Notes under the pieces: model-generated
What the model was told of the DNA's origin: nothing
Databases searched by the model: none
What the model saw: only the letters and a program-made list of their open reading frames with translations
Source of the DNA: Verrucomicrobiales bacterium
GTDB taxonomy: Bacteria; Verrucomicrobiota; Verrucomicrobiia; Methylacidiphilales; JAAUTS01
Direction of reading: 5' to 3'
Length of the DNA stretch: 39,565 nt
Assembly: GCA_031265365.1 (NCBI GenBank)
Contig: JAISCS010000052.1
Coordinates: 1-39,565, forward strand
Shown: in pieces, positions 10,926 through 39,565 of the stretch
How positions within the stretch are numbered: the first letter of the stretch is position 1
Layout: each line of letters starts with the position of its first letter
Made by a program: the position numbers and the translations under genes

Positions 10926-10948
10926 ACCAATAAAAACAGGAAAATCTT

Positions 10949-11360: not shown

Positions 11361-11374
11361 GGAAAGGTAACAGT

Positions 11375-12829: not shown

Positions 12830-12846
12830 GTTGGAGGATTAATTTT

Positions 12847-14206: not shown

Positions 14207-14208
14207 TT

Positions 14209-16626: not shown

Positions 16627-16646
16627 CTTTTAACCACGGATTAAGT

Positions 16647-16850
16647 ATGAGTGTTGGCGACATTCAAAATAATTTGTTGCGGAAAACGGCGGTGGTTGCG
16701 CTGGTCGTGCTGACGCCGGCGTTGTTTTTTGTGGAGTGCGGGGTTTGTCTTTACGTGCACCGAGACGAGTTTTCCTTGAATGGTTATTGGACGGGGATGC
16801 GCCACGCATGGCGCGGGGAACGACCGGGGGTGTTGTTGCGAGGGAAATAA
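16647..16850 (+). CDS. Small single-pass membrane protein
   Basis: 67 residues with one clear hydrophobic segment near residues 14-36 (AVVALVVLTPALFFVECGVC) and a basic C-terminal tail. Holin-like in size, but lies in the early operon far from any endolysin, so I leave the role open. Confidence 0.5.
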   Translation: MSVGDIQNNLLRKTAVVALVVLTPALFFVECGVCLYVHRDEFSLNGYWTGMRHAWRGERPGVLLRGK

Positions 16851-16852
16851 TT

Positions 16853-17188
16853 ATGGATGCTGATTTTAAGCGGGATGCGGCGGCGGCGCTGAAAGAGCTT
16901 CGTCGGGCGGGTGTGGAGGTACAGGCGGCATTCGTGTGGTTGTTGACGCTGGCAATCCACGAACCCAAATTCCGCGCTGATTTTGAGCGGTTAACAGGGC
17001 TGCGTTTTATCTTTTCAACCGCGCCGATTGACCGGTTGATTGACCAGGCTTGCGGCGCGGACCAACACAACATGGAAGTGATGGATTATTTTGCGGCGTT
17101 TGTGTGGATTACGGTGTGGACGCGGCTGGCACCGGCGGCGCGGAAAGAATTAATTGGGAAGGTTAAAAAAAACGGAGGAGCGACATGA
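16853..17188 (+). CDS. Hypothetical protein
   Basis: 111 residues from ATG 16853, three bases after the previous stop. Helical N-terminus (FKRDAAAALKELRRAGVEVQ), hydrophobic centre (AAFVWLLTLAIHEPKF) and a second nonpolar stretch (YFAAFVWITVWTRLAP). No motif recognised. Overlaps the next start by four bases. Confidence 0.5.
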   Translation: MDADFKRDAAAALKELRRAGVEVQAAFVWLLTLAIHEPKFRADFERLTGLRFIFSTAPIDRLIDQACGADQHNMEVMDYFAAFVWITVWTRLAPAARKELIGKVKKNGGAT

Positions 17189-17391
17189 TGAATGGTTTGA
17201 AATTTAGCGCGGGCAGGGCGGTGGCCGTGTGGCGCGGCGACACGCAAATAGGCCTCATCTATCACGACGGCGCGACCTGGTTTATCCATTGCTGGGGCGG
17301 GTGTCTATCCAATCGAGAGTTGGAAGAGTTGAACCGGCACTGCCGGGAGTTGCGGGCGCGGGACAAGACCGGAAGGAAGAAAAATGCCTAA
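17185..17391 (+). CDS. Hypothetical small protein
   Basis: 68 residues: a beta-rich start (VAVWRGDTQIGLIYHDGATW) and a helical basic tail (ELEELNRHCRELRARDKTGR). Overlaps the following initiator gene by eight bases. No family recognised. Confidence 0.5.
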   Translation: MMNGLKFSAGRAVAVWRGDTQIGLIYHDGATWFIHCWGGCLSNRELEELNRHCRELRARDKTGRKKNA

Positions 17392-18136
17392 CAGAATTTT
17401 ACGGGATTGGAGTGATTCGGAAAAAGTCAACGCGTTATCATGGCAGGCCGAGGTGTTGTTCACCCGTCTCATCATGAAGGCGGATGATTTTGGCCGGTTC
17501 ACGGGCAATCATAAACTAATCAAGGCCGCTTGCTTTCCGTTGCGGGAAGCGGTAAGGGACTCCGACATCTGCCACTGGCTCACCGCGTGTGAGCAAGCCG
17601 CGTTGCTCCGGGTTTATGTCGTCGGCGACAAAACTTACCTGCAAATCAGCAACTTTGGGCAGCGGGTCCGCGAGGGAGTCAAATCCAAATATCCGCCGCC
17701 GTCCGCCGCAGGTCGCGGCGGTTCGCCGCAACTCGCCGCGACCTGCGGCAACTCGCCGCCTTATTCGGAGGCGAAGGCGAAGGCGAAGACGAAGACGGAG
17801 GCGGGAGCGGCTGCGCTGCCACTCGCTGACGCTGAGGTGCCCAAGACAGCACTGACGGCCACCAATGCGCCACCGTTCGGGGATTGCTTTGCCCAGTTGC
17901 GGGTGTCCAGCCCGGACGTGCCGGAGGGCTTTGCCAAGCTGGTCTACGCGGATTGGGTGGGGAACGGGTGCAAGCCGCGCTACCCGGACTACGTGCGGAA
18001 GCGGTGGATGAAGAGCGAGGGCGAGGAGTGGCGCGCTGGCGTCCATAGCGAACAGAAGCGCCGGGCCGAAACCAAAAAGCAGGGAGGGAGTCATGAGCGA
18101 AAGAAGACGTTCGGGCAGCTTGCCGCGGAGGATTGA
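17384..18136 (+). CDS. Phage replication organiser (DnaD/lambda-O-like initiator)
   Basis: 250 residues with a good Shine-Dalgarno sequence (GGAAGGAAG). Residues 1-105 (ILRDWSDSEKVNALSWQAEV, LFTRLIMKADDFGRFTGNHK) form the winged-helix N-terminus typical of phage replisome organisers that sit just before DnaB. A low-complexity linker (about 106-150) is followed by a helical C-terminal part (FAKLVYADWVGNGCKPRYPD), which would contact the helicase or its loader. The linker DNA contains a perfect 16-base inverted repeat and direct repeats, as in the lambda O gene, whose linker carries the replication origin. The gene overlaps dnaB by 44 bases. Confidence 0.75.
   Translation: MPNRILRDWSDSEKVNALSWQAEVLFTRLIMKADDFGRFTGNHKLIKAACFPLREAVRDSDICHWLTACEQAALLRVYVVGDKTYLQISNFGQRVREGVKSKYPPPSAAGRGGSPQLAATCGNSPPYSEAKAKAKTKTEAGAAALPLADAEVPKTALTATNAPPFGDCFAQLRVSSPDVPEGFAKLVYADWVGNGCKPRYPDYVRKRWMKSEGEEWRAGVHSEQKRRAETKKQGGSHERKKTFGQLAAED
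17705..17810. other. Candidate phage replication origin inside the initiator gene
   Basis: GCCGCAGGTCGCGGCG (17705-17720) and CGCCGCGACCTGCGGC (17734-17749) are perfect inverted repeats around 13 bases. The sequence GCAACTCGCCGC occurs twice (about 17728 and 17748). A purine-rich stretch of GGCGAA/GACGAA repeats follows (about 17767-17800). The location matches the origin in lambda-type O genes. Confidence 0.5.
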
Positions 18137-19535
18137 CGTGCGGCTCGCGGAGCTGGTGGAGCCGCGCGGCGAGTTCGCGGAAAAGCAGACGCTGGCGGCG
18201 ATGGCGCAGGACGCGGGGTGCCTGGATTTGGCGCTGGAACGGTTGCGCGAGGATGATTTTTGGCATCCGTTTCACCGGCGCGTCTTCGCGCTGATGGGCG
18301 AGTTGCGGGGCCAGTCAAAGGCGGTGGACGCGGTCTCGTTGCTGGCGCGGTTGCCGAATGACGCGGCGGCGTTGGGCGAGTTGTCCGCCGGCGTGGTGGC
18401 GGTGCTGGTGTTCCCCGATTTGCTCGAGCAGGTGGCGCGGCTGGGGCAGTTGCGGCGCTGGCAGCGGGCGGCGGCGGAGATTTGCGCGCTGACCGCCGGC
18501 GGCGCCGCTGACGACGCGGAGGACATCATCAGCCACGCGGAAAGCCTCGTCAGCGCGGCGCAAATGGCCCAGGGCGCGACGAGTTTGCGTCCGGCGTCCG
18601 AGGTGACGGCCAGCGTCATCGAGACGCTGGATGGGGCGATTGCGCGCCGCCACGCGGGGGTGGCGGCGGTCGAGTTGTCCACCGGGCTGGACAGTCTCGA
18701 CCTGAGCAGCGGCGGACTCAAGGGCGGATGGATGGTGGTCATCGCCGCGCGGCCGGGGCAGGGGAAGACCGCGCTCGGCTTGCAATGCGCGCGGCACAAC
18801 CTCGCCAAAGGCAAGCGGGTCGGGTTTTTCACGCTGGAGATGACCGCCGAGGAGTTGCAGCGGCGCAATCTCGCCGCCAACACCGGTGTCAACCTGCGCA
18901 AAATCATTGACGGTCAGGTGAGCGCCAGCGAGCGCGATTTGATTTGTCAGCACGCGGCGGAGCAACAGCATTGGCCGTTGTTCTTCGAGGATTTGAGCTT
19001 GCTCAACGCCGCGCAGTTGCGCTCCAAGGCGCGGCGCATGGTCGGGCTGCACGGCGTCGACCTCATCGTGCTGGACTACCTGCAGCTGATGGAGGGCAGC
19101 GGCGAGTTCAACCGCGCCACCGAGCTTGCCGCCATCACCAAGACCGTCAAGAACACGGCCAAGGAACTCAAAATCCCCATCGTCACGCTCGCGCAACTCA
19201 ACCGCAAGACCGGCGACGGCGAGACCAAGCCGGCGCCGCACCATCTGCGCGAGAGCGGCAGCATCGAGCAGGACGCGGACATGGTGCTGTTGCTCAGCCG
19301 CGTCGAGAAGACCGATGAGGACGAGCCGGCGGCGAGCGTCAACGACCGCGCGGAGCGGCACGAGCACGCCACGCTGGTTGACCTCGCCAAGAACCGCAAC
19401 GGTCCGACGGGCGAGGAAGTGTTCGTGTTCGAGGGCCGCTTTCAGCGGTTCGTGCCGCCGCACAACCACAAACAACACGATGACCACGACGAGCGCGGCT
19501 CCTTCGCGGCGCGGGCGTTTAAGGAGGCCTCATGA
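18093..19535 (+). CDS. dnaB: Replicative DNA helicase, DnaB family
   Basis: 480 residues. The N-terminal domain (about 20-150) includes EKQTLAAMAQDAGCLDLALE and the FWHPFHRRVFALM motif. The RecA-like domain has Walker A ARPGQGKTALGLQ (about 219-231), FTLEMTAEELQRR, Walker B DLIVLDYLQLM (about 322-332), the LAQLNR motif, and ESGSIEQDADMVLLLSR ahead of KNRNGPTG. All catalytic motifs are intact. DnaB unwinds the phage replication fork as a hexamer. The C-terminus has an unusual histidine-rich extension (HNHKQHDDHDERG). It has a strong Shine-Dalgarno sequence (GGAGGGAG) inside the end of the initiator gene, and its stop overlaps the methylase start. Confidence 0.94.
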   Translation: MSERRRSGSLPRRIDVRLAELVEPRGEFAEKQTLAAMAQDAGCLDLALERLREDDFWHPFHRRVFALMGELRGQSKAVDAVSLLARLPNDAAALGELSAGVVAVLVFPDLLEQVARLGQLRRWQRAAAEICALTAGGAADDAEDIISHAESLVSAAQMAQGATSLRPASEVTASVIETLDGAIARRHAGVAAVELSTGLDSLDLSSGGLKGGWMVVIAARPGQGKTALGLQCARHNLAKGKRVGFFTLEMTAEELQRRNLAANTGVNLRKIIDGQVSASERDLICQHAAEQQHWPLFFEDLSLLNAAQLRSKARRMVGLHGVDLIVLDYLQLMEGSGEFNRATELAAITKTVKNTAKELKIPIVTLAQLNRKTGDGETKPAPHHLRESGSIEQDADMVLLLSRVEKTDEDEPAASVNDRAERHEHATLVDLAKNRNGPTGEEVFVFEGRFQRFVPPHNHKQHDDHDERGSFAARAFKEAS

Positions 19536-25814: not shown

Positions 25815-28800
25815 ATGACACCTAAATCGCCGCTACATTTTCGCAGCAACCGCGTCGCGGTGGGAGCCAATCCCGCGCCGACCGAGCCGGAGGAGGTCGC
25901 GCCCCAGCCGGTTGATGTCGAGGATGACGGCGTGGCCGCCGCTGACAATCCCATGCCGGGGGACTACGCCGCGCCGGAACCGGACACGCCGGCGACTTAC
26001 CACGGCGGCGGCACCGGTTTGAATTGGTCGCAAATTTCCAACACCGCGTTCAGAAGTCGCTTCGCCGGTGAAATCGCCGCCGATGAGCGCCGGCAGCAGC
26101 GCGAGGCGGCGGAGTGGCAGCGGTTTTCCGCGCAGCAAAACCGGAATCTGGCGGCGGCGCGGAAGGCGGCGGAAAAACAGGCCAACTCCAAGCGCGAGGC
26201 GGATTTTCGGCGGCGCGGGTTGTCTTACTACAAGAACGACAACGGCGAGATTATCGCCGACCAGAACGACGACGGCAGCGCGAAGTTCAAGCCGCTGGAT
26301 GAAACCCGCTACGACGAGCAGGGCGCCTACCAATACCAGCGCAACGAGCGGGGGGTGATTACGATTAAAGACCCCGACCAAAGCGCCCCGTACGGGAATC
26401 ACGAAAACGACCCCGAGGGGGTGTACCGGAAGAACAAAAGCAAGCCGTGGGAGCGCATCGGCGACGCCGAGGAAGTGTTGAAAAGCGGCAATCTGGGCGC
26501 CGCCGCCGCTGCCGCCAATTATTTGCGTCCTATCAAGCAAGCCGAGCATCTGCAAAAATTGCAAGAGGCGCAAGGGCGCAAGACCGCGCTGGAAGCGGTG
26601 GGCGCTGACAAAGTTTTCAATAAATCAATCGCGTTGGACAAGTACGGCGCGACGGAACGAAGCAAGTGGGAGGCGACGGTGCAGGCTGACTCCGAGCCAA
26701 TCCCCAAGCCGGCGCCGAAGTCCTCCGGCTGGTTCGGCGCCGGGGAAAAACGCATTACCGACACTGATTTGGGAAGGTGGGAGGACAGCGAGGCCGGGCG
26801 CAAACAACGGCTGGCGGAGGCGCAAGCCAATCTTGACCAAGCCGACCGGTATAGCGCGGCGGAAAAGGCGGTCGCCGATTTGAATAACGAGGGGAAAATC
26901 TACAAAAACAACGCCACCTTTTTGCAGCACGCGCGAGCGCAGGAGCGGCAACGCATCAAAGACCTGCCGCCGATCCGCGCGCGGGCGCGGGCGAACCAAC
27001 TGTCCCAGGGGTATGAGCAAAATAAACAAGCGCTGGGCGCGGACTTGCAAGCCTTCAACGCCGAGAAACAAATGCTTGAGCAGGAAGAACAGGCATTGAC
27101 GGCGGAGGCCGCGCAGGGGGTGTCCGGCCCGCAACTGGACGGGTTTAACGCCCGCCGGGCCGCGCTGGCGAGGCGCCGGACTGATTGGCAGCGACAGGGG
27201 GTGACGCTGCAAGCGCGGCATGACGAGTTGAACAATCAAGGCCGTGAATTGAACGATTTTTACGCAGGCCGACCGGAGGAGCAAAAACAAAGCCCCGGGC
27301 CGGACGGTGGGGAACCGCCCGCCGCCGGTAGCGCGGCGGGGTTGCAACCGCCGCCGCCGACCGCGCCATCGTCAGCGGGGCAAAAACCGGACGAGAACAT
27401 CATCATCAGCCCCAACACGCAAACCGAGTGGGATGGCAAAACTTCCGCCGGGAAAAATTCCGACGGTGAACTGGAGCTGTACAACGGCGCCAAGATTGCC
27501 GGTGTATTGAAAGCCGCCGGTGACACGCCGGTGTACCGGGCGACCGGCGCGAAGGTGGCGCGAAAATCAGGCGGCGAGGTTGACGAACTGGCAAAGGGGC
27601 TGAACGACAAGCGCCAGGCGCGGCAGGACGAGCTATCCACCAAGGCGCGGAAACTGTACGAAAGCGCCGGTCTCAGCCTCACGGCGGAGCAAGCCGAGGC
27701 GCAGGAGAAGGCGTTGCTGGATGAGTTTAAGAAAAAATACGCCGCTGACGATGCCGAGGCCAACCAGGTGTTGGGCGAGGCGTTGCAGGATTTTCACGAG
27801 GGCAAAATCAGCGCCCAGCAGGGTCAGCAAATCGCCTCGGCACTCGGGATGGAAAAGAGTTTCGCCGACCTTTACGCCGATGTGTCGGCGGAGATTGCAG
27901 GACCGTCCGAACAACTGAACGCGGCGGCGGATTTTGCCACCAACTTGATTGCAGGTAGCGACCGCGCCAGAGACCACAAGGAATATCACGTTTCAGGTCA
28001 TTTGATGAAATTCGCCGTTGGCGTGGAGGACGCCATCAAAGCCGCCGGTGGATTGACTGCCGAGCGACGGGGGCTGACGCCGGAGCAATTCGACGCGCGG
28101 CGGCACGAGGCGTTCATCACGGCCCAGCGCGTGTTCAAGCAACAGCATCCTGAATGGAGCGCGGAAAAGTTGCGCGCCGAGGCGGAGCGGGACGCTGACC
28201 GTCAGCTGGAGGTCAGGCGGGCGAAGTCGGAAAATAGTCTGGAGGTATCGCATTTAGTCAACAAGTTAGACCGGCAAGAGACCACGGAATGGCGCGCGGC
28301 CAACCAGCAGGCGGTTGACGCCATCAAACAGCAGCAGGAAAAATTCGACGCCGAAACCGAGCGCAAGGTGCGCGAAAAATTTCCCGACCTGACCGACGGA
28401 CAAGTGAAGGCGGTCATGTTGCAATCGGTCATGCGCGGCGTTGCCCGGCAAAAGATAAGCGTCGCGGAGATGACCAAAAATCCCGACTGGTGGATTGAGT
28501 TGGTGCCTTCAATCGTCGCCGGAGCCACGCCGGGGCCGGCAAAAATCCCAATGATGGCCTTGGCTGGCTTGTTTTCCGGTGGCTCAATGTCTGGCTTGCT
28601 GGTTGCCGCGCAAAAGGCGGAGAACGGCACCGCCACGCAGGAGGATTTGGAATTGTTGCAAACGTTCCAGCAGGAAAGCGCCAGAGACAAAACCTTTTGG
28701 GCCGGGGCATTGGATCTGGTTGCTCAAAGCATACCCTTTATGCAGAGCTTCAGCGCGACGGCAGGAATTGCCAAGGGCGCCCGCGCCAAGGCGCAACAGG

Positions 28801-31800
28801 CGGCGATAGCGGCGTTGAAAAAGACGATTGGCGCCAAGGCGACCGGCAATTTGGTTAAACTGGCCGCCAGTGACACGTTGAAGGGCGCGGTAACGCGGAC
28901 ACTGGCAAAAGGATTGAGCGTTAACCTTGTGGAGGAACCGGCGCGGTTACTGTTTGCCTCCGGCGGCACCATCACGAACAACATGGTGCGCGACGCTTTG
29001 CCGCAGTTTGATTTCACGCAAAACGAGGCGGGCGAGTTGTCGGCGACGCTGAACACGCCGAGCAAAACCGGACTGGACGCGCTGACGGGCAACCTCAACG
29101 ACCAGATGATTGAAAACACCTCGGAGCGATTTGGCGGGGTGTTTGGCAATTTGGGGAAGCCGTTGGTCAGGAAAGTGCTGGGCAATAAAAAAATCATGGG
29201 CCTGGCGCTGGCGAAGTGGCTGTTTAATCTCAACGATAACGTCAGCAAGAGCAAAATCGCCGGTTTTTTGAAAGCCGCCAATTTTAACGGGCCGTTGGGT
29301 GAAATGGCCGAGGAACGCTACGGGGATTTCTTGCGGGCGGTGCAGGGCGTGGCGAAAGGCGAGGGGTTTAACTTAAAGATTCCCTCTACCGAGCAATTAT
29401 TACAGGAAGCGGTGGCTTTTGCGGTGCCCGGTACGATTGGCGGTGTGTCGGGCCATTTTGCGCGCAAGGAGGAACTGAAAAAAGCCGATGCCGAGGCGCG
29501 GCAAAAGCTGACCCAGACGCGGCAGGATTACACGGATTTCCTCGCCAGCGCCACGCCGGAGAGTCTGGCGCAGGAATTGAACATTGATGTCGCCCAGGCG
29601 CAAGCCGCCTTGGAATTGGGCGAGACCGGCAAAGGCGCGGCGTCGGTCAAGCTGGCGGAGCAACAGCAAGCGTTACAAGACTTGGCGGACAAGGCGGAGA
29701 AAAAGGGCGACTTGGAAGGCTTGGCGTCGGTACGCCGGCAACAGGCTGAATTAACGAACCAACAGCGGGCTGCCGCCGTGGAGGATGTCAAAGCGCAGGT
29801 GGCGGCGGTGGCGGAACTTGACGCGGCGGAGCAGGCGCTGGCCGAGCAGGAGGCGCAACCGCCCGACCCGAACGCCACACCGGAGCAGGTTGCGGCGCGA
29901 CAGCAGGAACTCGCCGACCAGCGGCAGATGGTCACGCGGGCACGGGCGTTGGCAAAAATCGCCGGTGGCACGCAATTAAACACGCTAACCACGGACGAGA
30001 TGGCGGCGGTCGGGGTCATGGGTGATGGTAAGGGCGGATTCAAATCGGTGGTGAGCGCGCGGGAATTGGCGGGCAACAACACCTTGCAAGCCTCGCCGGT
30101 GCAGGTGGAAACATTTTCCCGCCTTTCCGCCGAGGGTGCCAGGGTGGAAGACCGCGCGCCCATCATCACCGATGGCGCCATCAAGCAGTTGCGGCAAGCC
30201 TTTCCGAACACGGCGAAGTTGATTGGCACCAATGAATCACAGGCGCGAGCCAATGCCTTGCGGCGGACGGCGGATATGCAGCGGGCGGCGGTGAATGCGG
30301 CGAAATTTCAAACTTCAAATTTCAAAAGCCAATTAAATGCCAAATCTCAAAAACAAAATTCCCAAACGAAGACCGCTGACGGTCAGCGGCAGTGGACGGG
30401 GTATGGGAGGAACGGGACGCAAGTCACGGTCAGCGCGGCGACGCGCAAGGAGGCCGAGGCGGAGATTGCCGCGCGGTTGCCGCAGTGGGAGATGATTGAC
30501 GCTGACAGTGTGGAGGAAGTCGCCGCGCCAAGTTCCGCTGACGGTGGGAATGACGCAACCAAGCCGGCTGACTCCAACACCCCGGCGGCTACTGTCAAAC
30601 GGCAGGAAGTCAAACTAGCTTTGCAGAAATTTATTGACCGCACAACCAATCCGCAAACGCGTGAATTCGCGCGACGGATGGCAGAAATTATTGAAAGACA
30701 ACTGGATGTCTATGAATCACTGTTTCCTAGCATCAACTTAAAATCAAAATTTGGGGGGAGTGGCATCGGATATAATCCGACAACAGCAAGTTTAGAAATT
30801 AATTTACGGTCTCTGGCTTTCAATTTAACAAGATCTTCGCGCGACTTTAAGAGTGCCGAAAAAATATTACAAGCACAGTTACGCGAGGAATTAATTCATT
30901 TTATTGCCACTGAGGAAATTGACGACAATCAAGTGGTTGAATTGTGGCTTCGGCTACCGGAGCAAATCAAAGATGCGGTGCGTAAAACCTATTTCAATAC
31001 ACTGGTAGATAAAAATCTGGATTTACCGCAAGAAGATGAAAAAATGCAGTATAAGCTCGGTCACGAGTTTTTACGGATGCTGGCGCAGGACAAGTTTTTC
31101 CGGCAAGTCACCGAAAGCGTGGACGTGTCGCCGGGGCTGTTGGCGGAGTTGCGCGAGTTGTTGGAGAAAATCGGCGCGCATTTGCGCGGCTTGCTGGCCC
31201 GTGACGCCGACGCGGACACCCAGGCGGCGGTGGCGGACGCGCTGGGCGTGATTGAACAGCGGCTGGTGGCCTTGGGCGCAATCGAGGCGAGCAAAACCGA
31301 GTCTGCCACCGGTGAACGTCAGCCGACGGCGACCGAGGAGACCGCCCAGCCGCCGGCCAACGCGCCGCCGCGCCGATTTGACTTGGGCGGTTACGCGGAT
31401 GATGTGCAGCAGGCGGCGACCGAGGCGTTTGCGGGATTGCTAAGCGCGGGGCGGCGGGCGGTGGCGACGCCGGCGGCGGCGCAACAGGAAATTGACTCAT
31501 GGCGCGAGGCGGATGCGAAGTTTGCCGCGCAGGTGGATGCGGCGCTGGCCGGCGTGTTGTCGCGTTACGACACGGTGCGGCTTGGCGGAACACCAGCGGT
31601 ATTACTGGCGCTGAACGCGCCGGATTTGCCGGTGGTGATGGCGCCGTCGGTCATTCGCAAGGTGGTGCAGGAAAAACACGCGGTGGCGGTTGATGATTTG
31701 AAACGATTGCCGGAGCAGCTACGAAATCCGGTCGCGGTGTTTTCCTCGTCCGGCAAAGCTGATTCGGTGGTGGTGTTGACTGAATTATTTGAGAACGGGC

Positions 31801-34800
31801 AACCGGTGATTGCGGCGGTGGCCTTGGAGCGTGAGAAAAACAGCGACCACTTCACCGTCAACGAAGTGACCAGTGTGTACGGCAAGCAGAAAAACGTGCT
31901 GGCGGATTGGGTGCGGGACGGACTGCTGATTTACGAAGACAAAAATAAAACCTTGGCTTGGTCGCGGCGTGCCCGGCTCCAATTGCCGGGGCGACGCAAA
32001 CCAATTCAAGGTTCTTATCAGAAGATACTCAGCCCCGCCGAGGTTGTCAACCATCCGGCGCAAATAAAAGCGCTGGCGGAAAATAAATCCGGCGGGCTGA
32101 ACGCCGGACGCCGTCCCGAAGTTAAAATCCCGACGGCAAAACGCCCGGCGTTTAACCGGCTGGCGGTGGCGTTGCTGAGGGACGGCGTGAGCACCCCGCC
32201 GGCGGTGCGCGAGTTTCTTGAGGCGGTGGACAGTGACGGAGGCGCGTTGCCGTATGGAGGGGAATTGTGGTCGCTCATGCAAGCCTTTGACCAAAGGCTG
32301 AAGGCGATTCCGTGGGCTGAAAACGACAGGCCGCTGACGAAGGAAATGCCCAAGCCGGAGCCGAACAAGCCGCTGACCTTCAGGGAGCAATGGCAACAAG
32401 CCGGTGAATATCAGCCGTCCAAGCGCGCGAAGATGCTGGTACTGCTATTGCGGAACCTGAAAGTGCCGTTGACCACGGCGCAAGTGTTCGCGCGGTGGTT
32501 TGACGAGACCAACGGGGAGTTGGCCGGCAACGAGGCGTTGCGCGACGCGGCCATCGCGGCGTTCCGGCAGTGGGGCGGGCAGTTCCGCGACGAGGTGTCG
32601 GTTTATTCCGAGGCGGTGGACAGCATTCTCGCCGCCGACCACGCGGCGGGCGGGACGATGACGCGCGGGCAAGCGGAGCAACAGGCCGCTGACGCGCGCG
32701 CCGACCGCGAGGCGAAGCAAGCCGCCGTGGACGCGAGCAACACGGCGCTGGCGGAAAAAATTCTTGCTTCCGAGGTTGCCGAAACCGCTGACGGTGAGTA
32801 TCTGTACCATGATGCGACATCTGGAAACACCGACCGGCGAGGGGCTGCTGCTGAGGGATTACCTCGACCAAGTGCCGCCGACGGTGAATCCGATGGATTT
32901 TTACCGGATACTGGACTGGAAAATCAGCCAGGACAACCGGCTGGAACGCAAGAATCGCAACCTGCCGCTGTTTCGGTGGCGGGAAATCAAGTTCGCGGTA
33001 TTGACGGCGAGGCGGCTGAGGGCGGCGCGGCTGAACCGCTGCCGCCGGTGGAGTTCCCCCAGCTTGGGAACCGAGGCACCGCTTACACCGACAACAACGA
33101 CGCCGTGGAGTTTCAGTGGGCGGTGATTGACGCTGACGGTCTGCTGACCAGCAACAACGCCGATTTCACGCCCAATCCGCGTTATCCACAAGCCTTGCAA
33201 CCGCGCGACCGTTCCCGCGCCGCCAGCCGCGAGCAGGTCAACGACATCGCCAAACATACCAACTTCAATCGCCTCGCCGACAGTGACAGCGTGGGCGGCG
33301 GCGCGCCCATCGTCGGCGCTGACGGGGTAGTGGAGAGCGGCAACGGGCGGGTGATGGGGCTGCGGCTGGCTTATCAGGAGTCGCGCCCGAACGTGGCGGA
33401 GTACAAGGCGCAACTGGTCGCCAACGCTGGCAAATACGGGCTGGACGGCGCGGCCATCGCGCAAATGCGGAACCCTGTGCTGGCGCGGGTGCGACGGACG
33501 GAGTTGAACCGGTTGGAGTTTGTCCGCGCGGCGAACGTGACCAATGTCGCCCAGCAGTCCGATGTGGAGCAAGCCCGCGTGGACGCGGCGAAAATCACGC
33601 CGGCGATGCTCAACGGTTTTCAGTTGCAGACGAACGGCGGCATTTCCACCGACGGCCAAGACCCGTTGGTGCGGGCGTTCGTTGACCGCGTGGTGCCGCC
33701 GAGCGAGCGCGGCGGCGTGGTGGACGGCGCGGGCAATTTGTCCGCGCGCGGGCTGGCGCGGATGCGCAACGCGCTGTTCGTCTATGCCTACGGCGGCGGT
33801 GACGCGGCGGGCGTCATGCTCCGGCGCATTGCCGAGGACGTCAGCCCCGACGGAAAGAACATCGTCGCCGCCATGCTGGGCGAGGCGGGGCGCATGGCGA
33901 ACCTGCGCGCGCGAATCGCTGACGGTGAGCGCTTCGACGTTTCCATTGCCGACGACGTGGTGCGCGCCGCGCAACAATGGCTGGAAATGACCCAGCGCGG
34001 CGACCGCGTGGAGGATTACCTGAAACAAGGCGAGATGTTCGGGCGCGACGAATTGCGGGACGACATTTTGCAATTCATTGACGCCAACAAGCGCGGCGTT
34101 AACCGGCTGCGGCGGGCGCTGGCCAATTACGTCGCGCTGGCGGACGCGGCGGGCAGTCCCAAGCAGGGCAATATTTTCGGCGCGAACCAAGCGCCAGCGA
34201 AAGCCGCACTGTGGGCGCTGGCGAAAAAGGCCGCCGCTGACGGTGAGGTGTTGCGCGCCGGACGCCGCGCCACCGACTTGCGCCCGCGCCTGAAAATTTT
34301 CAACCAACTGTTTGAGCGTCAGCGCGCCGGCGAGCGGCTGAATCCGGCGCAGACCGCGTTGTTCAATCGCGTGGAGCGCGAGCTTGGTCAGGCGACGATG
34401 TTTGACGAGGACGCGCCGTCAGCGTGGGATTTGACGCTGGAAGGCGAGACTTACGAGGAGGTGGCGCAGACCGTCAGCCCCGCTTGGACGGAGCAAGGCG
34501 TGTTGTTCGCGTCGCGCCGCCCGGTCGCCTGGGATTGGCTGCCGGAGGAGCAGCGCCGGAAAATCATCGACCCGCGCGTGCGGGAACTTATCAATGGCGG
34601 ACATTTGCATTCGGCGGAATGGGAGACCGAGGAGGTCAGGCGCGACGAAAAAACCGGGCGTTACTATTACGAAAAACTTGAACTGGCGCGGCGGCTGTGG
34701 ATTGAACATTCGCCGAGGGGCGCAGACGGTTATGTCGCGCCGATGGTCACGCTTGACGAGCACGACCCGATTTTGCAGCCCGCCGTCATTAAAAACGCTG

Positions 34801-37800
34801 ACGGTGAGTATGTTTATCAAAAAGAACGGACGCTGGACGGCAAGAACCGAAAAAATTATAACAAGCTGCTGATAGGCTCGCTGGTGGCGAAGTTTCCCCA
34901 AACGACGGGACAGCCGGAAATTTTGATGACCCAGGGCGGCGGTGGCGCGGGAAAGTCCACGGCGTTGCGTCAGATGCAGAAAAGGGGGGAGTTGAGCATC
35001 GGCAAATTCGCCAAGGGCAACGCGGATGATTTTAAGGAAAATAACATCCAGGAATATGCCCGCATTACCGCGTTGGGCGACCCGCGCGGCACACAGGCGA
35101 CGCACTTGGAGAGCGCCATGCTGCTCGATATGCTGCTGAACGAGGCGCTGAAACGCAAGGTCAGCGTGCTTTATGACGGGACGCTTTCGTATGTCGAGGC
35201 GATTGACCGCATCACCGGTCAATTTGCCGGTTACCGCCAGCGCGGCATCAGCGTTTTTGTCTCACCCAAAACCGCCAAGGTCAGCGCGATAGAACGCTGG
35301 ATTAGCGAGGGCCGATTTGTGGCCGTTGACGTGCAATTAAAGGCGCATCGCGGCGCGGAAGAAATGCTGGATTATTTCTTCAGTAAAATTTCGTCCGGCG
35401 AGGCGTTTTATCGCGAAGGCAAGGATTATCGGAAGTTTTTGGTTAAAAACGAAAATGGCGTTTTACCGATTGACTTGGCGACGTATAATATACTTCGGAG
35501 GGAGTATGAAAAAAGAAACGAAACGCAAGGAACTGAGGGAGGACGCGACCTGCGAGGAAGTGGCGGCGACAATCAGCCGGGAGTGGACGGCGGAGGGGTT
35601 GGCGGACAGGTGCCTGAGCGAGGACACGTCGCCGGAGAAGCGGGCGAGGTGGACAGAACGAATGAACGAGGCGTCCAGGGACGCCACCTGGGACTAAACG
35701 CCGGACGCCGCGCGCGGTCAGCGGAGGACGGGCCGAGTTTGTTCGACTTCCTGACCCCGGCGCAGACGCGGCAGGTCAGGCGGCGCGAGGTGGATTTGTT
35801 CGGCGTCCCGACCACGGATGAGGATTTGTTTAGCCTGAATGATTTGGAGGTAAAAAATGAAACAGCAAACCAATTACGAGCGGGTGATGAGCTTCCTCGG
35901 CAACAGCGAGCGGGAGGAAATCGTCAAAATCGCCAGCAATCCGCTGACGCTGGCGGAGGCGCTGACGTTCAAGCGGAACTCGGAGGATTTGCAGCTGACG
36001 CCGGACACGCCAGAGGCGCTGGACGCGGCGAACGCCAGCGCGGAGACGGAGAACGCGGCGGAGGAGATGATTTATTTGCTGATGGACAGCGCGCCGGAAA
36101 CGTGGAAGAAAATCAAGGCGGCGGTGAAGGAGTTAGCCAGCGACGGGGTGGCGGATTACCTCGACCGGATAGAACAATCCCACCGGTCAAACGTCAGGCT
36201 GAAACTGCTGGAGAAAACGGACGAGTTGACGGAGAAAATAGAGGCACTGACCGAGGATTTGCGGGAGACCACGGGACAGCGGGAACGGGAACTCAAAGAG
36301 GAAATAGCGAGCCTGAAAGAGGAACGGAATCGCTTGGAACACCAGCTGGACAAGCTGCAATCCTGAATCGTCCGGCCCCAAATTCACCGGAGCGCAATCA
36401 CGTCATCGCTGACGGTGACACCCTCGCCCCGCGCGGCGACGCGGCGAAACTCAACGCCAATCTCGCCGCCATCCGCTTGTTGCGGCAACTGGAAACCGAG
36501 CGGCGCAATCCCACCGTCAGCGAGAAAAAGACCCTCGCCCAGTACACCGGCTGGGGCGGTTTGTCGCAGGTGTTCGACGACCGCAAGGCGGAGCAATACG
36601 CCGACGGTGAGCACACCACCCGCCGCAACACCGCGCGTTCCTACGAGCGCCACGGCGCCACTTACGCGCAACTGGTTGACGATTACCGGCGGCAGGCGGA
36701 CGCGCTTGAAAACTGGCATCGCAAATGGGGCAAGTGGCACGCTGAATTAAAATCACTGTTGACGCCGGAGGAATACCGCGCCGCCGCCGCGAGCACGTTG
36801 AACGCGCATTACACCTCGCCGGAGGTCATCCGCGCGATGTGGCGCATGGTGGAACGGCTCGGCTTCAAGGGCGGCACGGTGTTGGAACCGGCGGGCGGCG
36901 TCGGACACTTCCTCGGCCTGATGCCGGCACACCTCGCCGACCGCAGCGTGACCGAGGCGGTGGAACTCGACAGCGTGACCGGGCGCATCCTGGCCAAGTT
37001 GTACCCCGAAACCAGCGCGCAGGTGACCGGCTTCGAGGACGCGAGCATTCCCGACAACTCCGTGGACCTGGCGATTTCCAACGTACCGTTCGCCAATGTC
37101 ACCGTCAGCGACAAAACCCTGGACGCGCTGGGCGCGCCGCGTTTTTCGCTGCACAATTATTTCTTCGCCCGCGCCTTGCAAAAAGTGCGACCGGGCGGAT
37201 TGGTCGCTTTTATTACCACCAGCAACACGCTCGATGCCAACGCGCCGCAACGCCGTTGGCTGGCGGAACACGCGGACTTCATCGCGGCGCTGCGGCTGCC
37301 GAACACCGCGTTCAAGGGCAACGCGGGCACGGAAGTCACCACCGACATTATTTTCCTGCGGAAGCCGGACGGTTCACCGTCAGCGACGGCGGAATCGTTC
37401 GCCGGCCTGCAAACCGCCAGGACGCGGCGCGGCGCTGATATTGACATCAACGAGTATTTTGCCCGCCAGCCCGCGATGATTTTAGGCGAACTGGACAATG
37501 ACGGCTCGATGTACGGCGCGAAGGAGCAGATGACCGTGCATCCGTTCGCCAACGGCGAGCCGCTGACGGTGAGCCTCGACCAGGCGCTGGCACGGTTGCC
37601 GGAGAATGTCATCGCTGACAGTGAAGAAGCAAAACCGAGGGCTGAAAGTGGCGGGCGGAAAGTTTCCGCCGGCGGCAAGCTGGGGACGCTGACGCTCAAC
37701 GACGCGGGCGGCGTGGTGATTAACGACGCTGCCGGTGACGAGGAAATCCTACAACCCAAACACCGCCAACTGGCGGTTGATTTTATCAAACTGCGCGACA

Positions 37801-39565
37801 CGCTGAACGAGTTGTACCGGCTGGAGGCGACCGCCGGCGTCGCTGACGCTGAACTGGACGCGCAGCGGGCGCGGCTCAACCAAGCCTACGACGCCTTCAC
37901 GTTGCGGCACGGCTTTGTCCACGCCAGCGCGAAGTTGCTCAATGTTGACCCCGACTACTACCGGCTGGCGGGCGCGGAGCTTGAGGAACCGCCGGCGGGC
38001 GGCAGTCTCCGCGTCGCGCTGTCGCGCCGGAAGCAATACCGCAAGGGCGACGTGTTCACCAAGCGCGTGCTGACCCCGCGCGTCGAGCCGGTGAAGGCGG
38101 ACAATCTCACCGACGCGACGGGCATCTCGCTCGGCTGGCGCGGGCGGCTGGACGCCGATTACATCGGCTCGCTGTTGTCCATCCCGCGCGCCGAGGCGGA
38201 ACGGCAACTGCTTGACAGCGGGCTGGCGTTCCGCAATCCCGCGAGCGGCCTGCTGGAAACCAGCGAGGAATATTTGAGCGGCAACGTGCGGCAAAAACTC
38301 GCCGTGGCCGAGGCCGCCGTCGCTGACAGTGACGCCTACCGGCGCAACGTCGAGGAATTGCGGAAGGTGCAGCCGGCGACGGTGAAACTCGCCGACATTA
38401 ATTTCCACCTCGGCAGCGCGTGGATTCCGGCGGAGGTCGTGCAGTCGTTCGCGCGGGACGTGTTCCAGCAGCCGAATTTGGAGGTGATTTACACGCCCGG
38501 CGTCGGCGAGGTGGTGGGGGACAGTTGGACGGTCAGCATCCCGCGCCGGTTTGATTCTTTCTCCAGTGAAAACGAAGGCACTTATGCCGGCGGCGGGTTC
38601 AACGCCGCCGAACTGTTGGAAAAGGCGTTGAATTTGCAGCAGCCGGAGGTGTTCAAAAAAATCGGCGACAACGAGCGCGTGTTCGACCAGACCGCCACCA
38701 CGCAGGCGAAAATGGCGTTGCAGAAAATCAAGGACGCCTTCGCGCCGTGGGTGATGTCCCGCCCCGCCGTCAGCGAGCGGTTGCAACAGGTGTACAACGA
38801 CACGAACAATTCCCATGTGCTCCGCCGCTACGACGGCTCCCATTTGAAACTGCCGTGGGTGGCGTCCGGCTTTGAGTTGTACTCGGAGAAGAAAAACACG
38901 GTCTGGCGCGCGTTGCAGGACGGGCGGATGCTGATTGCCCACGGCGTCGGCGGCGGCAAGACCATCATCGGCACCGCGATTGCGATGGAGTTGCGGCGGC
39001 TGGGGCAGGCGCGCAAGCCGCTGATGGTGGTACACAACGCCACGCTGGAACAGTTCGCCGCCACCATCGGCGCGATGGCGCCGACCGCGCGCGTGCTGGT
39101 CGGACGCAAGGAGGATTTGGCGGCGGCGAAGCGGAAGGAGTTCATGGCGAAAATCGCCGCCGGTGACTGGGACATGGTGGTGATGGCGCATTCCAGTTTC
39201 GACCAAATCAAGGACGACCCGCGGTTTGAGCGACAAATACTCGCGGAGTTGGAGGATGAGTTGACCGCCGCCATCATTGACCAGGGCGGCAGGACGGACG
39301 GCAAACTGGAGGGCAAGAACCCGACCGTGAAGGAAATGCAGAAGCAGTTGAAGCGGCTGCGCGAGCGCGTCAAGGATTTGCAGAGCCGCAAGGTGGACGA
39401 CGTGCTGACCTTTCAGGAACTGGGCGTGGACGCGCTGATTGTGGACGAGGCGCACTTGTACAAAAAGCTCCCGTTCGTCAGCAAACTCAATCGCGTGGCG
39501 GGCATTGACGGCGGCGAGAGCTTGCGCGGCACCGGCTTGCTGACCAAGGCGCGGTTTATTCAGGA
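25815..39565 (+). CDS. Giant polyvalent protein (MuF-C-like, DdrB/ParB-like, zeta kinase, DNA methylase, DEAH helicase), open at window end
   Basis: One frame runs from ATG 25815 (GGAG nine bases upstream) to the window edge without a stop: at least 4,583 codons. Residues about 86-895 are charged and coiled-coil. A hydrophobic segment lies near 898-935 and NGPLGEMAEERYGDFLRAV near 1157. A MuF-C-like domain spans about 1918-2075 (LGGTPAVLLALNAPDLPVVM...). A DdrB/ParB-like domain is at about 2412-2730, with PRDRSRAASREQVNDIA and ESGNGR at 2507. A zeta-like P-loop kinase follows (GGGGAGKST at 3041; YDGTLSY). Next are an N12-class adenine methylase (about 3530-3850: YTGWGGL, LEPAGGVGHFLG, NVPF at 3756 in place of NPPY) and a superfamily 2 helicase (GVGGGKT at 4377, VDEAH at 4543). 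Such multidomain proteins are known in phages and conjugative elements as polyvalent proteins, thought to enter the cell with the DNA and disarm defence. Domain names are recalled, not searched. Confidence 0.9.
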   Translation, partial: MTPKSPLHFRSNRVAVGANPAPTEPEEVAPQPVDVEDDGVAAADNPMPGDYAAPEPDTPATYHGGGTGLNWSQISNTAFRSRFAGEIAADERRQQREAAEWQRFSAQQNRNLAAARKAAEKQANSKREADFRRRGLSYYKNDNGEIIADQNDDGSAKFKPLDETRYDEQGAYQYQRNERGVITIKDPDQSAPYGNHENDPEGVYRKNKSKPWERIGDAEEVLKSGNLGAAAAAANYLRPIKQAEHLQKLQEAQGRKTALEAVGADKVFNKSIALDKYGATERSKWEATVQADSEPIPKPAPKSSGWFGAGEKRITDTDLGRWEDSEAGRKQRLAEAQANLDQADRYSAAEKAVADLNNEGKIYKNNATFLQHARAQERQRIKDLPPIRARARANQLSQGYEQNKQALGADLQAFNAEKQMLEQEEQALTAEAAQGVSGPQLDGFNARRAALARRRTDWQRQGVTLQARHDELNNQGRELNDFYAGRPEEQKQSPGPDGGEPPAAGSAAGLQPPPPTAPSSAGQKPDENIIISPNTQTEWDGKTSAGKNSDGELELYNGAKIAGVLKAAGDTPVYRATGAKVARKSGGEVDELAKGLNDKRQARQDELSTKARKLYESAGLSLTAEQAEAQEKALLDEFKKKYAADDAEANQVLGEALQDFHEGKISAQQGQQIASALGMEKSFADLYADVSAEIAGPSEQLNAAADFATNLIAGSDRARDHKEYHVSGHLMKFAVGVEDAIKAAGGLTAERRGLTPEQFDARRHEAFITAQRVFKQQHPEWSAEKLRAEAERDADRQLEVRRAKSENSLEVSHLVNKLDRQETTEWRAANQQAVDAIKQQQEKFDAETERKVREKFPDLTDGQVKAVMLQSVMRGVARQKISVAEMTKNPDWWIELVPSIVAGATPGPAKIPMMALAGLFSGGSMSGLLVAAQKAENGTATQEDLELLQTFQQESARDKTFWAGALDLVAQSIPFMQSFSATAGIAKGARAKAQQAAIAALKKTIGAKATGNLVKLAASDTLKGAVTRTLAKGLSVNLVEEPARLLFASGGTITNNMVRDALPQFDFTQNEAGELSATLNTPSKTGLDALTGNLNDQMIENTSERFGGVFGNLGKPLVRKVLGNKKIMGLALAKWLFNLNDNVSKSKIAGFLKAANFNGPLGEMAEERYGDFLRAVQGVAKGEGFNLKIPSTEQLLQEAVAFAVPGTIGGVSGHFARKEELKKADAEARQKLTQTRQDYTDFLASATPESLAQELNIDVAQAQAALELGETGKGAASVKLAEQQQALQDLADKAEKKGDLEGLASVRRQQAELTNQQRAAAVEDVKAQVAAVAELDAAEQALAEQEAQPPDPNATPEQVAARQQELADQRQMVTRARALAKIAGGTQLNTLTTDEMAAVGVMGDGKGGFKSVVSARELAGNNTLQASPVQVETFSRLSAEGARVEDRAPIITDGAIKQLRQAFPNTAKLIGTNESQARANALRRTADMQRAAVNAAKFQTSNFKSQLNAKSQKQNSQTKTADGQRQWTGYGRNGTQVTVSAATRKEAEAEIAARLPQWEMIDADSVEEVAAPSSADGGNDATKPADSNTPAATVKRQEVKLALQKFIDRTTNPQTREFARRMAEIIERQLDVYESLFPSINLKSKFGGSGIGYNPTTASLEINLRSLAFNLTRSSRDFKSAEKILQAQLREELIHFIATEEIDDNQVVELWLRLPEQIKDAVRKTYFNTLVDKNLDLPQEDEKMQYKLGHEFLRMLAQDKFFRQVTESVDVSPGLLAELRELLEKIGAHLRGLLARDADADTQAAVADALGVIEQRLVALGAIEASKTESATGERQPTATEETAQPPANAPPRRFDLGGYADDVQQAATEAFAGLLSAGRRAVATPAAAQQEIDSWREADAKFAAQVDAALAGVLSRYDTVRLGGTPAVLLALNAPDLPVVMAPSVIRKVVQEKHAVAVDDLKRLPEQLRNPVAVFSSSGKADSVVVLTELFENGQPVIAAVALEREKNSDHFTVNEVTSVYGKQKNVLADWVRDGLLIYEDKNKTLAWSRRARLQLPGRRKPIQGSYQKILSPAEVVNHPAQIKALAENKSGGLNAGRRPEVKIPTAKRPAFNRLAVALLRDGVSTPPAVREFLEAVDSDGGALPYGGELWSLMQAFDQRLKAIPWAENDRPLTKEMPKPEPNKPLTFREQWQQAGEYQPSKRAKMLVLLLRNLKVPLTTAQVFARWFDETNGELAGNEALRDAAIAAFRQWGGQFRDEVSVYSEAVDSILAADHAAGGTMTRGQAEQQAADARADREAKQAAVDASNTALAEKILASEVAETADGEYLYHDATSGNTDRRGAAAEGLPRPSAADGESDGFLPDTGLENQPGQPAGTQESQPAAVSVAGNQVRGIDGEAAEGGAAEPLPPVEFPQLGNRGTAYTDNNDAVEFQWAVIDADGLLTSNNADFTPNPRYPQALQPRDRSRAASREQVNDIAKHTNFNRLADSDSVGGGAPIVGADGVVESGNGRVMGLRLAYQESRPNVAEYKAQLVANAGKYGLDGAAIAQMRNPVLARVRRTELNRLEFVRAANVTNVAQQSDVEQARVDAAKITPAMLNGFQLQTNGGISTDGQDPLVRAFVDRVVPPSERGGVVDGAGNLSARGLARMRNALFVYAYGGGDAAGVMLRRIAEDVSPDGKNIVAAMLGEAGRMANLRARIADGERFDVSIADDVVRAAQQWLEMTQRGDRVEDYLKQGEMFGRDELRDDILQFIDANKRGVNRLRRALANYVALADAAGSPKQGNIFGANQAPAKAALWALAKKAAADGEVLRAGRRATDLRPRLKIFNQLFERQRAGERLNPAQTALFNRVERELGQATMFDEDAPSAWDLTLEGETYEEVAQTVSPAWTEQGVLFASRRPVAWDWLPEEQRRKIIDPRVRELINGGHLHSAEWETEEVRRDEKTGRYYYEKLELARRLWIEHSPRGADGYVAPMVTLDEHDPILQPAVIKNADGEYVYQKERTLDGKNRKNYNKLLIGSLVAKFPQTTGQPEILMTQGGGGAGKSTALRQMQKRGELSIGKFAKGNADDFKENNIQEYARITALGDPRGTQATHLESAMLLDMLLNEALKRKVSVLYDGTLSYVEAIDRITGQFAGYRQRGISVFVSPKTAKVSAIERWISEGRFVAVDVQLKAHRGAEEMLDYFFSKISSGEAFYREGKDYRKFLVKNENGVLPIDLATYNILRREYEKRNETQGTEGGRDLRGSGGDNQPGVDGGGVGGQVPERGHVAGEAGEVDRTNERGVQGRHLGLNAGRRARSAEDGPSLFDFLTPAQTRQVRRREVDLFGVPTTDEDLFSLNDLEVKNETANQLRAGDELPRQQRAGGNRQNRQQSADAGGGADVQAELGGFAADAGHARGAGRGERQRGDGERGGGDDLFADGQRAGNVEENQGGGEGVSQRRGGGLPRPDRTIPPVKRQAETAGENGRVDGENRGTDRGFAGDHGTAGTGTQRGNSEPERGTESLGTPAGQAAILNRPAPNSPERNHVIADGDTLAPRGDAAKLNANLAAIRLLRQLETERRNPTVSEKKTLAQYTGWGGLSQVFDDRKAEQYADGEHTTRRNTARSYERHGATYAQLVDDYRRQADALENWHRKWGKWHAELKSLLTPEEYRAAAASTLNAHYTSPEVIRAMWRMVERLGFKGGTVLEPAGGVGHFLGLMPAHLADRSVTEAVELDSVTGRILAKLYPETSAQVTGFEDASIPDNSVDLAISNVPFANVTVSDKTLDALGAPRFSLHNYFFARALQKVRPGGLVAFITTSNTLDANAPQRRWLAEHADFIAALRLPNTAFKGNAGTEVTTDIIFLRKPDGSPSATAESFAGLQTARTRRGADIDINEYFARQPAMILGELDNDGSMYGAKEQMTVHPFANGEPLTVSLDQALARLPENVIADSEEAKPRAESGGRKVSAGGKLGTLTLNDAGGVVINDAAGDEEILQPKHRQLAVDFIKLRDTLNELYRLEATAGVADAELDAQRARLNQAYDAFTLRHGFVHASAKLLNVDPDYYRLAGAELEEPPAGGSLRVALSRRKQYRKGDVFTKRVLTPRVEPVKADNLTDATGISLGWRGRLDADYIGSLLSIPRAEAERQLLDSGLAFRNPASGLLETSEEYLSGNVRQKLAVAEAAVADSDAYRRNVEELRKVQPATVKLADINFHLGSAWIPAEVVQSFARDVFQQPNLEVIYTPGVGEVVGDSWTVSIPRRFDSFSSENEGTYAGGGFNAAELLEKALNLQQPEVFKKIGDNERVFDQTATTQAKMALQKIKDAFAPWVMSRPAVSERLQQVYNDTNNSHVLRRYDGSHLKLPWVASGFELYSEKKNTVWRALQDGRMLIAHGVGGGKTIIGTAIAMELRRLGQARKPLMVVHNATLEQFAATIGAMAPTARVLVGRKEDLAAAKRKEFMAKIAAGDWDMVVMAHSSFDQIKDDPRFERQILAELEDELTAAIIDQGGRTDGKLEGKNPTVKEMQKQLKRLRERVKDLQSRKVDDVLTFQELGVDALIVDEAHLYKKLPFVSKLNRVAGIDGGESLRGTGLLTKARFIQ
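30300..30367 (+). repeat. AT-rich dispersed repeat inserted in frame in the giant gene
   Basis: Reads GCGAAATTTCAAACTTCAAA and continues with CAAATCTCAAAAACAAAATT, a low-complexity CAAA/TTC repeat of the type also seen at about 23001-23027 and 23362-23402. It keeps the giant frame open as a Q/N/K/S-rich segment (KFQTSNFKSQLNAKSQKQNS) and is followed at once by the palindrome GCTGACGGTCAGC. Confidence 0.65.
32809..33126 (+). CDS. Nested gene C: small protein in the +1 frame inside the giant gene
   Basis: 105 residues from ATG 32809 (or 104 from the adjacent ATG 32812). The first 65 residues read like a folded protein: MMRHLETPTGEGLLLRDYLD, QVPPTVNPMDFYRILDWKIS, then QDNRLERKNRNLPLFRWREI. By my count 22 of the first 30 codons end in G or C in this frame against 11 of 30 in the giant frame, where the text is disordered (ATSGNTDRRGAAAEGLPRPS). 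From about 33047 the pattern switches back to the giant frame, so the last 25 or so residues are probably dual-coded. A GGTGAG nine bases upstream, part of a GCTGACGGTGAG motif, is the only ribosome-site candidate. No family recognised. Confidence 0.55.
   Translation: MMRHLETPTGEGLLLRDYLDQVPPTVNPMDFYRILDWKISQDNRLERKNRNLPLFRWREIKFAVLTARRLRAARLNRCRRWSSPSLGTEAPLTPTTTTPWSFSGR
35484..35504 (+). promoter_or_regulatory. TATAAT and strong Shine-Dalgarno sequence before nested gene A
   Basis: Exact TATAAT (35484-35489) and GGAGGGAG (35497-35504) lie directly upstream of ATG 35506, inside the coding sequence of the giant gene. The -35 region 17 bases further up (TTTTAC) is weak. The Shine-Dalgarno element is stronger than most in the window. 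Confidence 0.5.
35506..35697 (+). CDS. Nested gene A: 63-residue protein in the +1 frame inside the giant gene
   Basis: Encodes MKKETKRKELREDATCEEVA, then ATISREWTAEGLADRCLSED and TSPEKRARWTERMNEASRDA. It is charged and helical, like a small regulatory or antitoxin-type protein, though no family is recognised. By my count 23 of its first 30 codons end in G or C, against 15 of 30 in the giant frame, which here encodes a glycine-rich linker (GGRDLRGSGGDNQPGVDGGG). It has a strong Shine-Dalgarno sequence and an upstream TATAAT. It starts right after the zeta-like kinase domain of the giant protein, which is where an antitoxin gene would lie in a toxin-antitoxin pair; that link is speculative. 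Confidence 0.65.
   Translation: MKKETKRKELREDATCEEVAATISREWTAEGLADRCLSEDTSPEKRARWTERMNEASRDATWD
35857..36366 (+). CDS. Nested gene B: 169-residue coiled-coil protein in the +1 frame inside the giant gene
   Basis: Begins MKQQTNYERVMSFLGNSERE, contains AAEEMIYLLMDSAPETWKKI and ends in a long coiled coil (EKTDELTEKIEALTEDLRET, GQRERELKEEIASLKEERNR). A perfect GGAGG lies six bases before ATG 35857. By my count 24 of its first 30 codons end in G or C against 9 of 30 in the giant frame, where the bases read as Q/G/R-rich filler. At the stop (36364-36366) the coding pattern returns to the giant frame with the start of the methylase domain. The giant frame has no ATG or GTG near that junction, so the methylase cannot easily start independently. 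No family recognised. Confidence 0.75.
   Translation: MKQQTNYERVMSFLGNSEREEIVKIASNPLTLAEALTFKRNSEDLQLTPDTPEALDAANASAETENAAEEMIYLLMDSAPETWKKIKAAVKELASDGVADYLDRIEQSHRSNVRLKLLEKTDELTEKIEALTEDLRETTGQRERELKEEIASLKEERNRLEHQLDKLQS

Follow-up and report, generated by a model that had tools for sequence, protein, structure and literature searches.

DarB-type antirestriction proteins contain a methylase-SNF2 helicase dyad, described with an N-terminal LPD36 domain in a study of polyvalent proteins (Iyer et al., 2017, PMC5512222). In phage P1, DarB requires accessory Dar proteins and is packaged and ejected; the accessory proteins Hdf, DdrA, DdrB and Ulx work with DarB in antirestriction and are encoded by separate genes (PMC12810830). 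In phage JC1 and in Bcep22-type phages, a DarB-like giant protein is present in the virion, and no homologues of the accessory Dar proteins have been reported from the phage group of JC1 (PMC9144972). The nearest precedent for the arrangement described below is the HNH endonuclease element of ShiLan, which is hidden out of frame inside a mycobacteriophage methylase gene and leaves the methylase frame open (PMC11855218). Here we analyse a 39,565-nucleotide stretch of phage DNA (the window; contig JAISCS010000052.1, one of the 213 contigs of a 2.76-Mb Verrucomicrobiales genome), in which a giant polyvalent gene carries three small open reading frames (ORFs), A, B and C, in its +1 frame. C lies directly upstream of the methylase-helicase module. 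To judge from sequence comparison, C and the genes found at the same place in relatives very probably represent an accessory gene that is overprinted, and conserved, in DarB-type antirestriction genes and that would be translated by internal initiation while the giant frame there forms an open linker. To our knowledge, long same-strand nested genes have seldom been described in double-stranded DNA phages; gene callers normally leave them out.

The big frame of the window is a member of the methylase-SNF2 dyad class, and the nested gene stands directly before the module, whereas P1 darB starts too near its methylase to hold one. The first-pass annotation of this DNA had described a frame from position 25815 that never closes, and three places, bounded by ATG and stop codons, at which the coding signal and GC-rich third positions switch to the +1 frame and back, with a return to the giant frame between B and C. 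Each of these observations was borne out. The giant frame has zero stops through 4583 codons. Codon log-likelihood, calculated in 40-codon windows, prefers the +1 frame at 32781-33020 (A), 35481-35720 (B) and 35841-36380 (C) and is back in the giant frame at 35721-35840, and GC content at third positions (GC3) in the nested frame is 0.75 for A, 0.83 for B and 0.79 for C. When the small protein was held fixed and its synonymous codons were redrawn from the gene's own usage, the probability that the giant frame is open by chance was 0.069 for A, 0.088 for B and below 0.0005 for C, where 6.5 stops are expected.

The C product is predicted by AlphaFold2 to consist of a helical N-terminal domain and a C-terminal coiled coil, with a predicted local distance difference test (pLDDT) score of 87.9 and a predicted template modelling (pTM) score of 0.70. 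As sole query, C gave zero matches in viral, phage and same-class genomes, and searches of Pfam, PHROG and NCBIfam returned no meaningful family for A, B or C. The searches by C alone failed because C is fast-evolving; searching with its methylase neighbour and comparing synteny found relatives. The methylase-region scan led to locus L002, whose methylase is 73% identical to that of the window and whose giant frame is open over 4239 codons. L002 carries a C homologue in the +1 frame at 2100-2414 (40% identity, E-value 2e-16), and between the two loci identity is 0.41 in the C frame as against 0.23 in the giant frame over the same region. Homologues of 27-28% identity occupy the same place and frame in L104-L107. 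The C family thus delimited appears to comprise the window, L002 and L104-L107, and perhaps L121 and L126.

When other DarB-like giant genes were scanned by frame, loci from several phyla proved to have +1 nested genes directly before the methylase. One family, W, was located by tblastn within the giant gene annotated in the isolate phages Klebsiella SopranoGao and LASTA, Vibrio VvAW1, Erwinia PEp14 and Pavtok, Pseudomonas Itty13, Ochrobactrum POI1126, Agrobacterium Atu_ph08, Sinorhizobium PBC5 and Microcystis Mwe-JY07. We examined 62 W loci, 52 of which came from a profile search of viral contigs. In every W locus with a methylase match, the methylase is read in the -1 frame with respect to W, and this frame stays open through W; giant-frame stops inside W numbered 0, compared with 105 expected and 167 in the third frame. 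An AGGA, GGAG or GAGG motif was present at the right spacing at all 31 non-redundant W starts, whereas 7.7% of the ATGs that lie out of frame in these genes have one. Identity across W is 0.43-0.52 in the W frame and 0.32-0.37 in both the giant and the third frame. The giant frame is thus no more alike between loci than the third frame, which is not translated; what is maintained in the overlap is an open giant frame, not the sequence that it encodes. Hence the nested frame is conserved, it has translation signals of its own, and the host frame is open against expectation, as in an overprinted gene. Two apparent exceptions were discarded: L048, which lacks a methylase match, is a decayed copy with visible remnants of the methylase N-terminus and with W still in +1, and the -1 frame stop of L193 lies, on our reading, upstream of the true W start. 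The W core is predicted to be helical (AlphaFold2 pLDDT 90 or above for residues 1-70).

An unbiased sample gave the same picture. It consisted of 80 loci picked purely by methylase homology, 58 after removal of redundancy, and a slot was scored positive if it held a +1 ORF of at least 50 codons with a Shine-Dalgarno (SD) sequence and codon support. The slot directly upstream of the methylase module was positive in 40 of the 58 loci. Control windows in the same genes gave 0 positives at seven of eight offsets, and no positive was found anywhere in the +2 frame. In 41 methylase-selected loci the giant frame contained 0 stops where 176 were expected, the third frame 260. An iterative hidden Markov model (HMM) seeded from W and run over all ORFs near the methylase recovered 127 loci, all in +1, and matched none of 2880 decoys; in most of the loci that it missed, a +1 ORF from another family takes up the slot. 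Slot families other than the W/TnpV-like and C families exist as well. No convincing +1 ORF was seen in the slot of L138, L143, L167, L101 and L096. Identities of W and methylase are correlated across 85 non-redundant loci (r = 0.74; 0 of 2000 permutations), and therefore the two are co-inherited.

Most of the small proteins in the slot appear to be TnpV-like. Phage W sequences stay below the cut-off of the TnpV family (PF14198), although 11 of 26 members match at E<0.01 (best 3.6e-5). The gathering cut-off of 27 bits is exceeded by nested genes of a Streptococcus suis plasmid (54.2), L183 (29.4), L157 (28.6) and L173 (28.2), and C of the window fails it. The S. suis plasmid (L213) has a GC content of 37% and a 144-codon nested ORF (TnpV E-value 1.6e-14). 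In a Campylobacter coli plasmid of 28% GC, an SNF2 gene contains a 158-codon nested ORF with AAGGAG, over which 16.4 stops would be expected; the resemblance of the product to W is weak (E-value 0.0017), and the codon score is lower in the nested than in the giant frame. In Verrucomicrobiota elements, including L183, a darB frame of about 1700 codons starts about 20 codons before tnpV, which is nested in it. Phages and plasmids with the overlap range in GC content from 28% to 70%. Because it occurs in these roughly 1700-codon genes and in a 28% GC plasmid, it is a property of the darB-like gene and not of giant size or GC richness. The first-pass suggestion of a link to a giant partner needs qualifying in this respect: the partner is the DarB methylase-helicase module. 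C appears to belong to another small family that shares the slot, frame and distance of TnpV.

The conjugative plasmid pREC3 of Acaryochloris marina (NZ_AP026078) offers the closest comparison outside the nested arrangement. Here an annotated TnpV gene is free-standing directly before a darB-like gene, so that family, neighbour and order are those of many nested genes. In contrast to the wholly nested tnpV of phages and other plasmids, however, it overlaps darB by 8 nt, and the darB frame is closed by 8 stops inside TnpV; C of the window, moreover, does not match the family. Separate gene parts with a real stop or start, which the first-pass annotation had named as the case that would overturn its claim, were thus found on this plasmid only and not in phages. 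TnpV-carrying S. suis mobile elements integrate into snf2 genes (PMC9815147), which may offer a clue to how TnpV and SNF2 genes first came to be paired.

We propose the following mechanism. Ribosomes in the big frame, which cannot stop, would make one polypeptide. With no stop in the big frame, translation is bound to read through, and the small product then needs separate initiation, for which a conserved SD sequence and start codon are present. Internal SD initiation would yield a small helical protein from the same mRNA. The big frame in the overlap would be an unconstrained, probably disordered linker between modules, with selection acting on the small protein. The product may serve as an accessory subunit of the adjoining methylase-helicase, either as an assembly or packaging chaperone or as a modulator of activity; the P1 and JC1 systems suggest, by analogy, that it may help to assemble, package or control this module. 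Ulx of P1 was weighed as a possible analogue and rejected, since ulx is downstream of darB. By overlapping, the small protein would share its partner's mRNA, be produced close to that partner and be passed on together with it every time, and losing one would be hard without damaging the other; it is plausible that the overlap ties the accessory factor to its partner. The original idea of small genes overprinted in a gene whose product remains one polypeptide is strongly supported for C and its equivalents, in which the +1 protein and the ribosome-binding site are conserved and the giant frame is open, and less so for A and B. Sequence comparison shows that both frames are kept, that ribosome-binding sites are conserved, and that the nested genes are homologous between loci and co-inherited with the methylase; we infer that the nested gene is translated and that its product would bind DarB and act with it.

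Several points weigh against this proposal. W starts in the Verrucomicrobiota DarB genes are without good SD sequences, and the SD sequence of A is weak (-3.1 kcal/mol). The control window at -1200 was positive in 4 of 55 cases. The stop-avoidance and SD tests count related loci as independent, and their extreme probabilities are not to be taken literally; the qualitative result, with zero stops, SD sequences almost everywhere, and a spread across phyla and GC contents, does not depend on them. No fold match explains C (Foldseek, viral structures) or W (Foldseek, PDB). C has no detectable homology to TnpV (probability 0.2% for the W profile against C in hhalign; no Pfam family over cut-off), and therefore to equate its role with that of the TnpV slot is a positional argument. 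We know of no function for the TnpV family.

The alternative that fares best is that C is the only true gene and that, at A and B, linker sequence happens to hold an open frame. No homologue of B was found when searched for, the SD sequence of A is weak, A and its L002 counterpart share 30% identity over a short length, and the chance of an open giant frame is not extreme for either. However, the codon signal and GC3 switch at both A and B, and the SD sequence of B is strong. A has a syntenic +1 counterpart in L002 (294-515), directly before ddrB-ParB, which shares the motif NLPLFRW/ELPLFRW (PLFRW) at a pairwise E-value of 1e-5; identity over this short stretch is 0.30 in the A frame and 0.14 in the giant frame. 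A look-alike with DLPLF is present in L105 at 2561-2764. Positional counterparts of B occur directly after Zeta in L103 (4343-4522) and L168 (5423-5608). They are not alignable with B, but the two share a nested gene with each other (51% identity over 37 residues, E-value 1e-10), possibly an antidote or modulator gene. On balance we regard the idea that C stands alone as unlikely, though not negligibly so. A and B are likely to be further nested genes of the same sort as C, attached to the ddrB-ParB and Zeta modules, respectively; the support is weaker than for C, as A has one clear homologue and one look-alike and B none. As regards A, the frame switch proposed for 32809-33126 is real, yet the coding signal fades at about 33020-33080 and the last ~15-35 codons enter the start of ddrB-ParB (Pfam from 33093), so that the C-terminus of A either truly overlaps this domain or is unconstrained. 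As a tentative extension, for which the odds appear somewhat unfavourable, DarB-type and other polyvalent genes may hold fixed overprint slots in their linkers (before the methylase, after Zeta, before ddrB-ParB) for swappable, unrelated partners, always in +1: a hidden set of accessory or antidote genes that would be expressed and inherited only along with the module they serve, with B, for example, as a Zeta antidote or modulator.

Programmed +1 ribosomal frameshifting, by which the nested frame would become an alternative C-terminus of a truncated upstream protein, would agree with all nested genes being +1, and the PBC5 record has W in one frame with the upstream part, as the end of orf33 (5752-12309). 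In several loci, however, in-frame stops stand 2-8 codons before the nested start (2 in L033, L036, L064 and C of the window; 4 in L004), which leaves almost no room for a shift. For C, a TAA at 35851-35853, two codons 5' of the ATG, leaves only about six bases within which a frameshift from upstream could enter the C frame. The SD sequence at each of the 31 W starts also argues against it, and the PBC5 relatives POI1126 and Atu_ph08 have a continuous giant frame, which makes PBC5 an exception or a sequence error. Frameshifting is hence very improbable. We give equally little credence to a mobile insertion that happens to leave the host frame open. The ShiLan gene is likewise concealed, out of frame, within a phage methylase gene (PMC11855218), TnpV is named after a transposon, and TnpV-carrying S. 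suis elements insert into snf2 genes (PMC9815147). ShiLan, in contrast, is a mobile, sporadic HNH homing element without a detectable ribosome-binding site, whereas the nested genes encode small helical proteins in which no nuclease or integrase domain was found, have SD sequences, are conserved at one site in most sampled genes, not sporadically, and are co-inherited with the methylase (r = 0.74). Finally, that the giant frame is passively open, through GC-rich codon usage and chance length, with separate genes as true products, is the least credible view: the overlap frame has the fewest stops with GC-rich third positions, which may explain the constant +1, and the chance of an open frame is 0.07-0.09 for A and B alone, but the upstream part has no stop to end at and read-through is forced, 0 stops were observed against 105 and 176 expected, overlaps persist at 28-50% GC with up to 16 stops expected, and where the genes are separate, in Acaryochloris, the darB frame has 8 stops inside TnpV.

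Table 1. Features of the giant gene in the window and a nested gene of related loci
Feature	Position	Strand	Evidence
Giant polyvalent ORF	25815..39563	+	4583 codons; ATG 25815; zero in-frame stops up to contig/window end
MuF C-terminal domain (PF18819), giant frame	31665..31952	+	Pfam E-value 8.3e-26
Nested gene A, +1 frame, 105 aa	32809..33126	+	weak SD; coding signal best up to ~33020-33080
ddrB-like ParB domain (PF18763), giant frame	33093..33494	+	Pfam E-value 7.3e-32; covers last ~11 codons of A
Zeta-toxin-like kinase domain (PF06414), giant frame	34896..35375	+	Pfam E-value 2e-18
SD sequence GGAGGG of B	35497..35502	+	-10.0 kcal/mol, good spacing
Nested gene B, +1 frame, 63 aa	35506..35697	+	directly after Zeta domain; codon signal, strong SD
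Giant-frame return SLFDFLTPAQTRQVRRREVDLFGVP	35698..35856	+	codon signal; L002 counterpart QLDLFDTLSESQRREVQSRELDLFGNP directly before L002 C gene
SD sequence GGAGGT of C	35846..35851	+	-10.6 kcal/mol, good spacing
Nested gene C, +1 frame, 169 aa	35857..36366	+	codon signal, strong SD, homologues at same place and frame
DarB-like methylase + SNF2 helicase module, giant frame	36402..39563	+	phrog_10089 DarB-like antirestriction E-value 5.8e-294 (~36720-39560); window end falls inside module
WKDWHASVSQWPARDPDRQGYLKQARQIIREK nested gene, +1 frame	L038 18598-18807; L070 14502; L081 14619; L085, L086 14589; L035 18616-18762		

The features of the giant gene in the window are collected in Table 1. 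Its frame joins the methylase-SNF2 helicase fusion to ResIII, MuF_C, ddrB-ParB and Zeta toxin domains (Pfam, PHROG), as in DarB-type polyvalent proteins. Upstream of it lie genes for a Sak4-like annealing protein, an exonuclease and a DnaB-like helicase and a weak terminase match, and for this reason we regard the window as phage DNA. No relative of the methylase region or of C was found in four sampled congeners, and the phage element therefore looks strain-specific.

Other nested genes and motifs were seen in relatives. In L006, the giant gene contains a second, unrelated +1 nested gene at 6114-6266 (MPYKSRAQQGYFHTHQKELERQGVKV...), which has a GGAGG motif and lies a long way 5' of the methylase slot, and the giant genes of rhizobial phages share another conserved +1 nested gene near the C-terminal part (..WKDWHASVSQWPARDPDRQGYLKQARQIIREK..; Table 1). 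Segments of the type QLDLF/QLSLF or EVDLF, which resemble sliding-clamp-binding motifs, stand directly before the nested gene in L182-L187, L002, L104, L126 and the window (35770-35850). As a general feature preceding nested genes, the QLDLF motif was rejected, with 2 of 75 strict matches.

Two database records also call for comment. In that of PBC5 (L035, AF448724; 11733-12309), W shares its frame with the upstream part of the giant, the methylase part being in another frame, whereas relatives are continuous; orf33 ends with W, and the frame change is either a sequence error or a natural split. Q8W6J4, the one strong viral Foldseek match of W, is probably the orf33 product, with W in frame with the upstream part, and the record appears to have brought W into the PHROG_938 profile. 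In the Itty13 record (L040, MW460249), three opposite-strand genes are annotated over a single giant forward ORF at 6993-19328, which is likely a misannotation.

Neither overlapping genes nor TnpV came up in a text search of the study of polyvalent proteins (PMC5512222), and in the open-access literature searched we came across no description of this arrangement, most subscription papers being outside this coverage. Collectively, our results describe a nested gene whose place and frame are constant in phages and plasmids from several phyla, down to a GC content of 28%. It is probably absent from very many annotations, including those of the isolate phages SopranoGao, VvAW1 and PEp14. DarB-type antirestriction genes, a major counter-defence module, would gain a previously unnoticed partner, and TnpV a concrete context. 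The arrangement would also suggest a route by which giant fused genes may form or persist, in which the linker is the other frame of a small gene.

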